From NCBI GenBank assembly GCA_023134705.1, contig JAGLUN010000061.1, positions 1-33,968 on the forward strand: a stretch of 33,968 nt of DNA. Reading direction: 5' to 3'. Shown here piece by piece: positions 8,379-28,448 of this stretch (the first letter of the stretch is position 1; every line of letters begins with the position of its first letter). A program made the position numbers and the translations under genes. The notes beneath the pieces are model-generated. The model had not been told where the DNA came from. It saw nothing but the letters and a program-made list of their open reading frames with translations, and ran no database searches. Origin of the DNA: Candidatus Omnitrophota bacterium. Its GTDB lineage: Bacteria; Omnitrophota; Gorgyraeia; Duberdicusellales; 4484-171.

Positions 8379-9937
8379 AACATAATCGGCTTGTTATATA
8401 TTTTTAAAATCCGGTTTATCTCATTGGAATCCCATAAAGAAACCTTATTCTCTTTCGCGACTAACTCAGCTTGGGTTTCTAACTTACCCAGAGATATGAA
8501 TATTTTTCTTAAGTTCTTGGTTTTGATAGATTTAGTGATGTTGTCAAAATTTGAAATATCAGTTTCATCCGTGTCATTTTCTTTCACTGCCGCGAATAGC
8601 ATTTCATCACCTTCGCCTACAATAATATTTAATTTCTTTTCGGAATAAGAAACCATCTTTATTCTAGTTAAAGAGGGAAGCTTAATCCGGTTTTTCTTTA
8701 TAACTATAGTATCTCCTTTAAAAGCAGAGAACAACTCAAGTATCCTCTGCATTTTCTCTTTATAAAAGTCTTCTTTAAAGAGGGAAATCTGTTCTTCCAT
8801 GTTTTTCCGGAAAAGATTATCTCTTTTCTTCTTATCTAAAGGGCAGGATAAATAAAATTTAAAAACATGGGATAGCCAAAAAGAGAATAAGGAATCTGTT
8901 ATCCGGTATAAATTGCCTGAATTTTCAACGTATTCCGTATCTAAAAGGCGTTGTAATTTTGAATTTATTCTCTTTTTTTCTAAACCGGAAAAAGATACTA
9001 TATCCCCTTTACGGATATACCCCTCACTTATAAAAAGAAGAAGTTTTATGAGGCCGCGGGAATCCCTGGGATATTTGCCTTTTATAAGTTCAATCCTGTT
9101 GATGAATTTCTGGAAGATAACCGAAGATTTTTCGTACAGGAGACTCTCGATACTTTTAACTAAGATTTGCTTGTCACTGTCTGAGTGAAGTTCTTTGATC
9201 TTTTTAGTAATAACTTCATAATATTCTATGTTTGAGGAGAGAATATTGATGAAAAAAGCTATAAAACAGGGATCATGCCGTAAAGGTTTAAGTAAACTAG
9301 AGAAAAAGAGATAATTATCTATCGTTGATGATTCTCCCAACAAAACAGTTTCAAAATTGCCGAAAAGCAGATTTAAGCCTGAATCCAGGGCTTTCTTAGC
9401 TTCTCTGATGCTTGAGCTTTTTAAAATAATCATGCATTTCTTTTGGAGCATTATAAATTTAGAAAAGTCCTGATGGTACTTATCAAATATGTCCTGGAGC
9501 TCCGGGAACTCTTCTATCGCGAAAATACATTTTTTGTTAGTTTCAGTTATGAATTTATTGATTAATTCCAGAATATCCATAAACGATAAACGTTTTCTTT
9601 TTAGGATAATCTTAATGTAATCTGTGGTCGTGGGAAGAACCCCAGCGGCAGTATTAATTAATCCGTCGAGAGAATCCTGGGTGTTAAGATATTGATTTAA
9701 AATGGAGCGCGAAACATTTTTAAAAATATCTTTAGCGTCGATATAAGAAATATCCACATTTATGTATATCAGGCTCCGATTCTTTTCTTCGTAAATGAAG
9801 TTCTCGAATATATACTTAATTTGTTCTTTGCTTTTTCCTAAAATCGCGATATTTTGCCGGTATCCGTCTAAGAAACCTTTTATTCTTTTTTCCACGGTAG
9901 TTATAGCCTTTGATTTCAAAAGAGTCATATTATTCAC
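8375..9937 (-). CDS. Degenerate archaeal-type ATPase with DUF234-like C-terminus
   Basis: A 520-residue protein resembling the AAA-family ATPases that carry a DUF234 C-terminal domain. The N-terminal third looks like the ATPase core, but the Walker A position reads NIAILGKSKEQIK without a proper GxxxxGKT loop, and the Walker B-like strand is CIFAIEEFPEL with EE rather than DE. A winged-helix-like region follows (about 300-355), then FSFWLSHVFKFYLSCP, typical of the family. The C-terminal 120 residues resemble the nuclease-fold tail (LNIIVGEGDEMLFAAVKEND). It may lack ATPase activity. The start is GTG with AGGGGA 10 nt upstream; ATG at 9928 is possible. First gene of a nine-gene operon. Confidence 0.7.
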   Translation of the reverse strand: MNNMTLLKSKAITTVEKRIKGFLDGYRQNIAILGKSKEQIKYIFENFIYEEKNRSLIYINVDISYIDAKDIFKNVSRSILNQYLNTQDSLDGLINTAAGVLPTTTDYIKIILKRKRLSFMDILELINKFITETNKKCIFAIEEFPELQDIFDKYHQDFSKFIMLQKKCMIILKSSSIREAKKALDSGLNLLFGNFETVLLGESSTIDNYLFFSSLLKPLRHDPCFIAFFINILSSNIEYYEVITKKIKELHSDSDKQILVKSIESLLYEKSSVIFQKFINRIELIKGKYPRDSRGLIKLLLFISEGYIRKGDIVSFSGLEKKRINSKLQRLLDTEYVENSGNLYRITDSLFSFWLSHVFKFYLSCPLDKKKRDNLFRKNMEEQISLFKEDFYKEKMQRILELFSAFKGDTIVIKKNRIKLPSLTRIKMVSYSEKKLNIIVGEGDEMLFAAVKENDTDETDISNFDNITKSIKTKNLRKIFISLGKLETQAELVAKENKVSLWDSNEINRILKIYNKPIML

Positions 9938-10098
9938 CGTACAGAATCCCCTTCGTTTTACAAGAGAACCATTTTCTTTTTTTAAAAATATTTGTGTTTA
10001 AGGAAAGTTGTTTGTTTAGAAGAAAATAATTGTTTTGGAAAAAAAGACGATATCTTATAAAAATTAACTTCTTGAGAAAAACATTCCCTAAACAACTA

Positions 10099-10127
10099 AT
10101 TATAAAGGTAATCAAGAATAATTTCAA
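10099..10127 (-). promoter_or_regulatory. Sigma-70 promoter for the nine-gene operon
   Basis: On the minus strand, TTGAAA (10122-10127) and a perfect TATAAT (10099-10104) are separated by 17 bp. The predicted start is near 10092, giving a leader of about 155 nt to the GTG at 9937. The 65-aa ORF 9930-10127 in the track would start upstream of this transcription start, so it is not a likely gene from this promoter. Confidence 0.75.
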
Positions 10128-10164
10128 TGATTTTATAAGTTAAAGTTTTTCATTTTTTAGCAAA

Positions 10165-10262
10165 CATCTGCTGATCCATCTGCGACCATCTGCGTTGCAT
10201 CTGCGACTATCCGCGTTTTCTCTATCTGCGACCATTTGCGTGTAATTTGCGATTATTTGCGT
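10165..10262. repeat. Degenerate tandem ATCTGCG words
   Basis: Seven or so imperfect units of the type ATCTGCGACC, ATCTGCGTTGC, ATCCGCGTTT, ATTTGCGTGTA and ATTTGCGTC run head to tail. The spacing varies from about 10 to 17 bp, so this is neither a strict microsatellite nor a CRISPR array. It ends where the duplicated tRNA-flanking segment begins. Confidence 0.7.
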
Positions 10263-10486
10263 CCCGCAATTGCCGTGCGAAACCAGCTATCTAGCCATTG
10301 CTTTTATCAAAGAGGCAATATCTTTATTGCAAAGGTACCGAGCGGGCGAGCGGTAAGGACACTATCCCGAAGGGATAGACTCTTAAATTGTCCTTCCCGC
10401 AATTGCCGTACGAAACCAGCTATCTAGCCATTGCTTTTATCAAAGAGGCAGTATCTTTATTGCAAAGGTACCGAGCGGGCGAGCGG
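10262..10486. repeat. Direct repeat (92 bp, two copies) around a 41-bp hairpin element, ending in tRNA-Gly
   Basis: A 92-bp segment at 10262-10353 recurs at 10395-10486 with only about two differences (for example CCGTGCGAA against CCGTACGAA). The spacer is a structured element bounded by AAGGACA (10355) and TGTCCTT (10389), enclosing a hairpin CTATCCC-GAA-GGGATAG (10362-10378). The last 12 bases of each repeat are the 3' end of tRNA-Gly, complete only in the second copy. ORFs predicted here are repeat translations. Confidence 0.9.
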
Positions 10487-10544
10487 AATCGAACCGCCAT
10501 AACAAGCTTGGGAAGCTTGCATTCTACCACTGAACTACACCCGC
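10474..10544 (-). tRNA. tRNA-Gly (anticodon CCC)
   Basis: The minus strand folds as a complete cloverleaf. The acceptor strands GCGGGTG and CGCCCGC pair with one G-U. There is a short D arm (GTTC...GAAT), an anticodon stem CAAGC/GCTTG with loop TTCCCAA giving anticodon CCC (reads GGG), and a T arm with TTCGATT. The discriminator base is U, as usual for bacterial tRNA-Gly, and CCA is not encoded. The first 12 and last 12 nt are duplicated in repeats on either side. A promoter could not be fixed, although TTGTTC and TATGCG lie upstream. Confidence 0.95.
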
Positions 10545-10709
10545 AAGTTTTCAAAATAACGCATAGCAAAGATTAAATGAGAACAACCACTGTCCGCCAC
10601 AATATATAAAATATATAGGCGGATCCGCCGCAGGCGGAAACTACACCCGCAAGTTTTCAAAATAACGCATAGCAAAGATTAAATGAGAACAACCACTGTC
10701 CGCCACAAT
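10533..10709. repeat. Direct repeat (71 bp, two copies) around a GGCGGATCCGCC element, beginning in tRNA-Gly
   Basis: A 71-bp segment at 10533-10603 is repeated identically at 10639-10709. The first 12 bases of each copy are the 5' end of tRNA-Gly (minus strand). The 35-bp spacer contains an AT-rich stretch followed by the palindrome GGCGGATCCGCC (10618-10629) and GCAGGCGGA. The upstream copy carries a duplicate of the tRNA promoter-proximal region plus a tRNA 5' stub. Confidence 0.9.
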
Positions 10710-11073
10710 TGAGAATCGAAAATAGAAAATAGAATTACAAACTCCGCAAGTAGTTTGTTGTTAGTAGTTTGTAGTTTGTTTAAAAAAATATGTTATCCGA
10801 CCACTGAATCGTCACGAATCTTTGTATACACGAATAAGGATAAAGGAAAAAGTGTATTCATACTCCCACTTTAAAATGCTAATTTAACATTTATAATTTT
10901 GCATTTAAACTCTCTCTGCACTCTGCCTATTCAGCCCATAGCCCAACAAATACAATCTCTTCCCCAAACAAACCACTAATTTCTCCCTTTTACCTAATAC
11001 GAGTATCTAGGATCGAGCATCTAGCATCTATTTCTTTTTCTATCTTCTATCCTCTATTTTCGATTTTCTATTT
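10710..11073. repeat. Intergenic mosaic repeat island between tRNA-Gly and thiC
   Basis: No gene is seen. It begins with GAATCGAAAATAGAAAATAG-type words, then a 33-bp AGTAGTTTGTTGTTAGTAG word (10749-10781). A block of about 140 bp follows (TGTTATCCGACCACTGAATC ... CTAATTTAACATTTATAATT) that recurs at 27985-28190. Then come CTCTGCACTCTGCC and CAGCCCATAGCCC words, CTAGGATCGAGCATCTAGC, and a TCTATCTTCTATCC run that ends just beyond the thiC stop codon. Confidence 0.7.
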
Positions 11074-12330
11074 TCACTTAAGCAAATCACAACTATCTAT
11101 CAATTTCAAAGAGCAGAATTTTCCGCACATTGAACAAATATCATCGGAGCTGACATGTTCCGCGTTTCTGTATTTTTCTGCCTTATTTTTGTCCAGAGAG
11201 TAGTTAAAAACTTCTTTCCAATTACGTTTTGCCCTTGATAAAGACAGAGTTCTATCTTTTTCCCATTCATCTTTAAAATTTACAATATCCACAGAGTGAG
11301 CGGCAATTTTAGAAGCAATTACACCTAATTTTATATCTTCTACCGAAGGATGCCGTAAATGTTCCGCGGGAGTTACTACACACAAAAAATTTGCCCCCCA
11401 AAGAGCGGCTAATGCTCCTCCAATAGAAGAAACGATATGGTCATATCCACAGGCAATATCGGTAGTAAGAGGGCCCAGGATATAAAAAGGCGCGTCAGCA
11501 CACACTTTTTTCTGGGCGAACATGTTGAATTCTATCTGGTCTATGCGGATATGCCCGGGTCCTTCAACCATTACCTGGAGGCCTTTTTTTCTGCATTTTT
11601 TTACCAGATTCGAAAGGACAAAAAGCTCATACATCTGTAATTCATCGGTAGAATCAGCTATGGCACCGGGCCTTAAAGCGTCGCCTAAGCTTATAGTTAT
11701 ATTATATTTTTTGGCAATATCTAAGACTGTATCAAAATTTTCAAAAAGAGGGTTCTCTTTATTATTTACATACATCCATCTTGCCAGGATCGCTCCTCCT
11801 CTACTGACAATTCCCGCGGTTCTTTTCTTTTTTTTAAGAATATTTAAAAAATCTTTTTTTATGCCCGCGTGAATGGTAAAGAAATCTACTCCATCCTGAG
11901 CTTGTTCTTCTAAAACATCAAAAATGTCTTCTTTTTTCATTTTCTCAAAACTGCCTTTTTTCTTTTCTACTTCTAAGGCTGCCTGGTAGATAGGAACAGT
12001 GCCTACGGCAACCGGGGATTTCTTAATAATTTCTCTTCGGATTTTATTTAAATTACCTCCGACACTTAAATCCATGACAGTATCCGTTCCGTATTTAACC
12101 GCTTCAGCTAATTTTTGCAGTTCATCCTTAATTTCTTTTCGCTCTGTAGAGGTTCCGATGTTAGTATTTATTTTTACTTTCATCCCTTTGCCGATAGCGA
12201 CAGGATTTTCGAGATTTTTTTTCTTATTAACAGGAATAACTACTTTTCCCGCCCGGAAATTTTTTTCCAGAAATGAAAAATCGACTTTTTCTTTTTTAGC
12301 GATATCTTTTAAGAATTTTTTGCTAAACAT
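11074..12330 (-). CDS. thiC: Phosphomethylpyrimidine synthase
   Basis: A radical SAM enzyme that rearranges aminoimidazole ribotide to HMP phosphate in thiamine synthesis. The 418-residue length fits the shorter bacterial/archaeal form without the N-terminal extension. Family stretches include VKINTNIGTS, DTVMDLSVGG, SRGGAILARWM, SLGDALRPG and MVEGPGHIRIDQI. The C-terminal cluster motif CSMCGKFC (CX2CX4C) is intact. It is the last gene of the pfkA-to-thiC operon, and its ATG lies 22 bp inside thiE. No TPP riboswitch was recognised upstream of the operon. Confidence 0.97.
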   Translation of the reverse strand: MFSKKFLKDIAKKEKVDFSFLEKNFRAGKVVIPVNKKKNLENPVAIGKGMKVKINTNIGTSTERKEIKDELQKLAEAVKYGTDTVMDLSVGGNLNKIRREIIKKSPVAVGTVPIYQAALEVEKKKGSFEKMKKEDIFDVLEEQAQDGVDFFTIHAGIKKDFLNILKKKKRTAGIVSRGGAILARWMYVNNKENPLFENFDTVLDIAKKYNITISLGDALRPGAIADSTDELQMYELFVLSNLVKKCRKKGLQVMVEGPGHIRIDQIEFNMFAQKKVCADAPFYILGPLTTDIACGYDHIVSSIGGALAALWGANFLCVVTPAEHLRHPSVEDIKLGVIASKIAAHSVDIVNFKDEWEKDRTLSLSRAKRNWKEVFNYSLDKNKAEKYRNAEHVSSDDICSMCGKFCSLKLIDSCDLLK

Positions 12331-26305: not shown

Positions 26306-26491
26306 GTGTATTGTGTTAGACACGAATCATCACGAATTCCACACGAATTGGCACATATAAGTAGTTTGTTGTTAGTAGTTTGTAGTTTGTTTAAAAAAAA
26401 TGTGTTATCAGGCCGATCACTAATATATCCCTTTCCCCAAACCAACTACTAACTACAGCATTTTTCAGCCCATAGCTCAAAAAGATGAAAG
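26306..26491. repeat. Intergenic mosaic repeat island upstream of rpoN
   Basis: It holds ACACGAATCATCACGAATTC words, a 33-bp AGTAGTTTGTTGTTAGTAG word (26360-26392), TGTGTTATCAGGCCGATCAC (a diverged version of the block at 10790), an opposite-orientation CAAACCAACTACTAACTAC segment, and the CAGCCCATAGCTC word. No gene. It separates the divergently transcribed DUF6580 gene and rpoN. Confidence 0.65.
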
Positions 26492-27928: not shown

Positions 27929-28448
27929 GTCCTCCAGCAATGTTCTCTACGAGTAGTTTGTAGTTGGTAGTTTGTAGTTTGTTTAAAAAAATATGTTATC
28001 CGACCGCTGAATCGTCACGAAATTTTGTATACACGAATAAGAATAAAGGTTAAAGGATTCCGCCAGAGGCGGATCCGCTTGCCCGCCTCTGATTGCTGTG
28101 TACAGAAGCTTCGCTTCTGCCCTTCGGCGGAAAAGGAAAAAGTGTATTCATACTCCCACTTTAAAATGCTAATTTAACATTTATAATTTTACACTTGCAT
28201 CTTCTTGTATCATTTTGCATTTGCATCTTCTTGCTCTATGCTCTTTGTACTATGCCTTCTCGCCCTATGCCATTTCAGCCCAAAGACCATTGACTATAGA
28301 CTTTCTTACTAGTATCGCGTATTGCGTATCGTGCATAAGGTTACTCAAAGCAACCTTCTCTAACTTTAAGTAACCTTCCCTAACCTCAAGTAACCTTCTC
28401 TACGTAACCTTCCCCATGTAACCTTATCAGCCATTGACCATAGACTAA
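27929..28448. repeat. Large intergenic mosaic repeat island
   Basis: About 520 bp without a gene. It opens with an AGTAGTTTG-type word (27952-27984), then a block homologous to 10782-10910 interrupted by an 87-bp palindromic insertion (28050-28136). TGCATCTTCTTG and CTATGC words follow, then a 24-bp word inverted relative to 22974-22997. Next come five or six degenerate AAGTAACCTTC units (28336-28425) and a CATTGACCATAGACTA word abutting the stop codon of the PocR gene. Confidence 0.75.
28050..28136. repeat. 87-bp palindromic insertion within a repeat island
   Basis: Compared with the related island at 10840-10850, which reads TAAAGGAAAAAGTG without interruption, this copy carries 87 extra bases. 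The insert holds CCGCCAGAGGCGG, GATCCGC, CAGAAGCTTCGCTTCTG and CCTTCGGCGG hairpins. AAAGG lies at both junctions (28045-28049 and 28132-28136), consistent with a 5-bp target duplication. Confidence 0.75.

Follow-up and report, generated by a model that had tools for sequence, protein, structure and literature searches.

The only tRNA gene in the window (the whole 33,968-nucleotide stretch of DNA that was analysed) is probably host to mini-elements that contain no gene, insert into tRNA genes and restore the gene end that they interrupt; a probability of about 0.64 is given to this reading. Mobile DNA has long been known to settle in tRNA genes, and the known elements that do so are typically kilobases in length, bear an integrase and are matched to one tRNA. 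If the reading is correct, units of ~130 bp enter tRNA genes at a single nucleotide, in eight or more isotypes, with each gene end restored, which poses the question of which enzyme reads a hairpin by its shape and duplicates an isotype-specific target end. The units would also offer an explanation for the tRNA-end fragments that are found in genomes of this clade; such fragments need not mean genomic islands.

Anatomy of the tRNA-Gly(CCC) Locus

The window is one entire contig of a genome of 1.41 Mb in 94 contigs. The class of this genome probably belongs to Omnitrophota, as another member of the class, G281, has a 49-mer in common with Omnitrophica WOR_2 bacterium GWF2_43_52. Its tRNA-Gly(CCC) gene (10473-10544, minus strand) is flanked by two direct repeats, the lengths and identities of which are far above chance: on the 3′ side, 92 nt with 98% identity (10262-10353 and 10395-10486, with a spacer of 41 bp) and, on the 5′ side, 71 nt with 100% identity (10533-10603 and 10639-10709, with a spacer of 35 bp). 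Both repeats, and a palindrome on each side of the gene, had been recognised in a preliminary description of the locus and are confirmed here. That description also had both repeats stopping exactly 12 nt inside the tRNA. The 5′ repeat does so; however, the 3′ repeat runs 13-14 nt into the gene (13 or 14 according to whether the tRNA boundary is that of Rfam, 10474, or that of ARAGORN, 10473), and therefore the exact symmetry does not hold. Similarly, the 35-bp spacer that had been described on the 5′ side is present, but it is just part of a 46-bp double palindrome of the GGCGGA type (10593-10638), which extends into the end of the 71-nt repeat. The components of the locus are:

10262-10339, minus strand: second copy of spacer V, with no hairpin after it; a truncated tandem unit
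10340-10353, minus strand: displaced tRNA-Gly 3′ end fragment (3′ strand of the T-stem and 3′ strand of the acceptor)
10355-10395, minus strand: hairpin element H of the 3′ unit, with a 7-bp stem (AAGGACA/TGTCCTT), a one-sided bulge of 10 nt (ATTTAAGAGT) and a 7-bp inner hairpin (CTATCCC-TTC-GGGATAG)
10396-10472, minus strand: proximal spacer V of the 3′ unit, from the 3′ end of the intact tRNA to the hairpin; begins GGTACC and ends GCGGG
10473-10544, minus strand: intact tRNA-Gly(CCC), identified by ARAGORN and by RF00005 (66.4 bits)
10545-10585, minus strand: proximal leader U, from the tRNA-fragment remnant to the 5′ end of the intact tRNA
10586-10592, minus strand: CAGTGGT, nt 13-19 of a dead tRNA-Gly 5′ copy, beyond the inserted palindrome
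10593-10638, no strand: 46-bp GGCGGA-type palindrome, inserted so as to separate nt 12 from nt 13 in the dead 5′ copy of the tRNA
10639-10650, minus strand: tRNA-Gly 5′ fragment, nt 1-12
10651-10709, minus strand: distal copy of U, which ends in ACCACTGTCCGCCACAAT, a remnant of another palindrome copy

The 3′ unit is 133 bp long, and the window units (133 bp and 106 bp) contain no ORF of useful size. When positions 9900-11100 of the window were searched against Rfam (evalue mode), nothing but tRNA reached a family's cut-off. An assembly artefact is an unlikely source of the repeats, because there are two differences between the 92-nt copies and because the layout recurs in independent assemblies, including two single-contig ones (G001 and G004). 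Adjoining the truncated copy of V, at positions 10165-10262, CATCTGCG-type units form a short array of imperfect tandem repeats; comparable stretches are present in relatives.

tRNA-End Fragments at Other tRNA Genes

Fragments of tRNA genes were surveyed as same-strand 12-mers of each tRNA gene within 700 bp of that gene, with other tRNAs masked. In the genome that carries the window, 5 of 34 tRNA genes (Arg, Gly, Tyr, Gln and Ser) have same-strand tRNA-end fragments nearby, as do 8 of 42 in genomes G004 and G036 (Met, Phe, Leu, Ala, Tyr, Ser, Gly and Asp). This gives 13 of 76 surveyed tRNA genes for the order to which the window belongs, compared with 0 of 43 in two genomes from other orders of the class (Fisher p = 0.004). 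Within the genomes sampled, the units with tRNA-end fragments are confined to the clade. With reversed tRNAs as a control, there were three stray matches for the first set and two for the second; an antisense control, run in the second set, gave none. The majority of the fragments take in a gene end, nearly all 3′ fragments start in the T-loop, and the ORF-free spacings cluster at 106-143 bp.

The Hairpin at the Fragment Junctions

The 3′ units of tRNA-Gly in five genomes (the window's own, G026, G036, G006 and G020) end in a hairpin that follows the same plan but differs in sequence: a stem of 5-7 bp, a run of 6-20 unpaired nt solely on the arm away from the fragment, and an inner hairpin that is flush against the other arm of the stem. 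The sequence of the inner hairpin in the window's 3′ unit occurs only once in its genome, and the stems vary among copies. This shape (stem, one-sided bulge and inner hairpin) was found at 16 of 19 junctions, where 0.06 would be expected from dinucleotide shuffles; the 19 include tRNAs known solely from the fragment survey as well as the tRNA-Gly loci on which the plan was first spotted, and they are partly non-independent (tandem copies and homologous Ser loci). Two junctions that pass the shape test, i.e., the 5′ units of tRNA-Gly and tRNA-Arg in the window's genome, have a GGCGGA palindrome in place of the canonical hairpin, and leaving these out as secondary insertions gives 14 of 17. The shape is absent from three junctions: those of Gln and Ser in the window's genome and that of Met in G036.

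On the 5′ side of tRNA genes, the hairpin is the mirror image of that on the 3′ side. As DNA, its polarity relative to the fragment is unchanged, whereas an RNA motif would differ between the two sides, which points to recognition of DNA. A structure-first scan recovers most of the known units and two further 5′ units, at tRNA-Leu(TAA) in G036 and tRNA-Gly(TCC) in G010; because it also meets chance occurrences elsewhere, shape alone is insufficient as a marker. When the pattern of the tRNA-Gly hairpin unit was sought in all species genomes, the matches listed from outside the clade were chance matches only, mostly in G+C-rich DNA.

The GGATGCRAT Family

Three junctions (Ser in G004, Ser in G059 and Tyr in G017) have in common the sequence GGATGCRAT...ATYGCAT. 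Of the 37 genomes in the window's family, 10 have structured GGATGCRAT-N-ATYGCAT copies according to a pattern search of 384 genomes of the class, which gave only unstructured matches outside that family; the viral contigs held no GGATGCAAT unit. Every structured copy sits in a unit downstream of an intact tRNA. At the 12 loci that were analysed, which represent eight isotypes (Met, Phe at two loci, Ser at three, Lys, Leu, Arg, Pro at two, and Tyr), the duplicated tRNA sequence begins at C56, immediately after GTT (GTT^C), and the unit is 124-143 bp long. The unit at tRNA-Glu in G032 is composite, with a second hairpin adjoining the displaced end.

The inner hairpin of this family varies on both arms while complementarity is kept (CTCCGCC/GGCGGAG, CTTCGCC/GGCGAAG, CTCTGCC/GGCAGAG, CTTTTGC/GCAAAAG and CTTCGAT/ATCGAAG). 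The outer stem is nearly fixed, although the fixed sequence is in part the search pattern itself. Two of the displaced fragments (Phe in G001 and Arg in G006) hold an additional inserted palindrome, as would be expected because these copies are dead. In tRNA-Gly, the 3′ breakpoint (about 60/61) is about 5 nt from T55/C56, the site used by the GGATGCRAT family, and the stem has another sequence; it is therefore by architecture, by the size of the unit and by position that the two are tied together.

The Orthologous thiC-tRNA-Gly Locus

The thiC-tRNA-Gly locus is orthologous throughout the window's family. The duplication and the hairpin occur together in three genomes (the window's own, G026 and G006), and neither is present in five (G032, G009, G013, G031 and G027), i.e., none of the eight scored loci has one without the other. 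In G020, the locus is split across contigs, and the hairpin and displaced end are visible on another contig. A filled and empty pair among near-identical strains was not found, so transposition itself was not observed. With regard to direction, the displaced fragments of Ser (G004) and Asp (G036) encode CCA and the intact genes do not. Insertion that brings a new end would explain this difference, because a plain duplication starts with equal ends; later loss of CCA from the intact gene is a possible alternative source.

The preliminary description had proposed that it is the tRNA that determines the breakpoint; the genome-wide search for comparable structures at tRNA genes bears this out. It had also regarded the palindromes as having been filled in at tandem-duplication junctions; this finds no support, as the hairpins recur with their asymmetric architecture kept and, in ten genomes and at eight isotypes, with their end sequences conserved. 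The alignment of relatives that it recommended, to see whether the duplication exists without the palindrome, yielded no such orthologous thiC-tRNA-Gly locus, and a reading of the tRNA-Gly locus as a one-off is likewise unsupported, given the recurrence of fragments and hairpins at other tRNAs and in other genomes. The duplications are real, and are neither unique nor a simple tandem-duplication scar.

The Palindrome on the 5′ Side

The GGCGGA-type palindrome (TCCGCC-nnn-GGCGGA, frequently doubled; e.g., L051-L065) has 98 matches in the genome that carries the window. At 15 of its loci elsewhere in that genome there are no flanking direct repeats of at least 25 nt, and simple target duplication by these dispersed palindromes was rejected accordingly. 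Beyond the 46-bp palindrome in the window, the tRNA copy resumes for 7 nt (CAGTGGT), and the 5′ fragment reaches about nt 19-20. The same arrangement is seen at tRNA-Arg(CCT) of the same genome (nt 1-12, palindrome, then CAATCGGATA), and at tRNA-Gly in G010 a palindrome is present at the same insertion point, with a canonical hairpin further on. Because the palindrome is dispersed, the tRNA copy resumes beyond it, and the Arg(CCT) and G010 Gly loci are parallel cases, the 5′ GGCGGATCCGCC palindrome of the window is probably a secondary insertion into a dead, older 5′ fragment of about 20-22 nt. Elsewhere, dead copies of tRNA-Tyr (L044 in G037 and L252 in G036) are interrupted by palindromes twice, at the anticodon loop and at the T-loop.

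Proposed Mechanism and Alternatives

Each of the proposed mini-elements is a unit of about 106-143 bp in which a copied tRNA end is followed by a variable spacer of about 50-80 bp and then by a hairpin, which lies flush with the displaced original end of the tRNA. Insertion of such a unit would split the tRNA gene, and the duplicate of the split-off end would leave one tRNA intact. The breakpoint is in the T-arm for 3′ units (T55/C56 in the GGATGCRAT family and about 60/61 in tRNA-Gly) and in the D-arm for 5′ units, where the hairpin is mirror-imaged; we infer that the 5′ and 3′ units are mobile by a shared mechanism. The hairpin would probably be read as folded or cruciform DNA by a trans-acting enzyme, recognition of folded DNA being probable because 5′ and 3′ hairpins have the same shape and the same orientation with respect to the fragment, while their sequence is free. 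In the window, the second copies of V and U would have arisen by later tandem duplication of units, followed by decay, and the dispersed GGCGGA palindrome would have settled afterwards in the dead 5′ fragment. A regenerated 3′ end that matches each isotype cannot be explained by a fixed element alone. A broader and decidedly more tentative proposal is that the units might represent non-autonomous mobile DNA of a class that has not been described before, which is recognised by the shape rather than the sequence of its hairpin and inserts at a fixed point in the near-universal T-loop (or, mirrored, in the D-arm), duplicating the isotype-specific gene end, such that almost any tRNA gene could be entered harmlessly.

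The main rival to mini-elements, which may alternatively be a further level of the same biology, is that a small, free-standing GIY-YIG homing endonuclease cuts tRNA genes, that microhomology repair duplicates their ends, and that the window units have lost the ORF. It has a precedent in SegB of T6, where a tRNA-Tyr segment was amplified through cleavage and recombination (PMC13096335), and small GIY-YIG ORFs are within 400 bp of a tRNA at 11 of 32 sampled loci, where about 1 would be expected. Such an ORF separates the intact tRNA from a tRNA fragment at tRNA-Tyr of the window's genome, at two His loci (L198 and L210) and at two Ser loci (L208 and L219); in that genome, outside the window units, there are six PF01541 matches, two of which adjoin tRNAs. 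Suggestively, V shares an exact 19 nt with the end of the GIY-YIG ORF at tRNA-Tyr of the same genome (seen in 0 of 500 shuffles and 1 of 109 real windows), but at the protein level neither U nor V is significantly similar to GIY-YIG C-termini, and both were rejected as remnants of such a protein. As the ORF is absent from all tRNA-Gly loci and GGATGCRAT units examined, and as conserved hairpin ends are left unexplained, the endonuclease is considered an unlikely source of the units. Among the loci with GIY-YIG ORFs, L074 (G000:C53:8254-8463) has one between a truncated and an intact tRNA, and L198 has two in tandem; at L077 (G000:C41), two displaced 3′ fragments lie after tRNA-Ser(TGA) and enclose a partial GIY-YIG ORF as well as a structured insert that is different and longer.

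It is rather less probable still that the units are decayed tDNA islands, i.e., tyrosine-integrase islands at the T-loop that have been reduced to their attachment sites. The regenerated tRNA, the displaced fragment and the T-loop crossover are hallmarks of such islands (PMC4383910, PMC1762012), but independent decay should not leave tRNAs of eight isotypes with uniform units of 124-143 bp that share a conserved hairpin end, and no integrase-bearing intermediate was noticed among the loci examined. That the fragments and hairpins serve the host as RNA, i.e., as parts of the pre-tRNA transcript that act as decoys or processing signals, akin to rtT of E. coli, would account for a hairpin shape that is kept at the orthologous thiC-tRNA-Gly locus while its sequence has diverged. 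This appears highly improbable, given the mirrored polarity of the bulge described above, the Rfam search in which only tRNA came up to a family's cut-off, and the five of eight scored orthologous loci that do without a hairpin unit.

Relation to Known Systems

In tDNA islands, the gene is split and its end restored, and a minority leave a 5′ fragment (Islander, PMC4383910); the T-loop class of these islands includes Ms6 (PMC1762012). Like them, the units described here have a split target tRNA, a regenerated end, a displaced fragment at the far end and a T-loop crossover. An intact, regenerated tRNA is accompanied by a displaced fragment of the same tRNA, and the crossover is at GTT/C56 at the 12 loci, at the boundary of the T-loop and T-stem on the 3′ side of tRNA-Gly in the window, and in the D-arm in 5′ units. 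The units are not members of the tDNA islands, because those of the window contain no integrase gene and because of their small size. Unlike the islands, they are gene-less, 106-143 bp in length, have a hairpin at the end with the displaced fragment and occur in tandem copies, and one sequence family serves at least eight isotypes. The layout, for which the preliminary description knew of no mechanism, is close to that of tDNA integration with a regenerated gene end and a displaced fragment, but is in miniature and lacks an integrase; a search of the literature (mostly without subscription papers) found no element of such description. Nucleases of the T6 SegB type (PMC13096335) have in common with the units their tRNA association, partial copies and tandem units. 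They differ from the window units, which have conserved hairpin ends in place of a nuclease ORF.

Downstream of tyrT in E. coli, the tandem repeats of rtT each contain the 3′ terminal nucleotides of the tRNA, as in the units here; we know of no comparable hairpin there. The units also differ from rtT in that they involve many isotypes and both gene ends, and there is no Rfam match to rtT in positions 9900-11100 of the window. REP/RAYT elements and the palindromic elements of Rickettsia are short, non-coding hairpins that are dispersed within one genome, and the GGCGGA palindromes behave alike. The hairpins of the tRNA units, in contrast, are not conserved in sequence across genomic copies, have an asymmetric bulge and are located at tRNA-fragment junctions. 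Integron cassettes with attC form array-like units in which the terminal hairpin is conserved in structure but not in sequence, as is the case here; however, the units contain no gene, no GTTRRRY core is apparent by eye at the junctions, and the insertion site is a tRNA.

At several loci, the U and V spacers frequently contain a GTTCTTTTAAATA-like motif, which by eye resembles boxA of stable-RNA leaders. Further from the tRNA, an A+T-rich dispersed repeat is present at positions 10745-10900, 26359-26409 and 27952-28190 of the window, as well as on other contigs.
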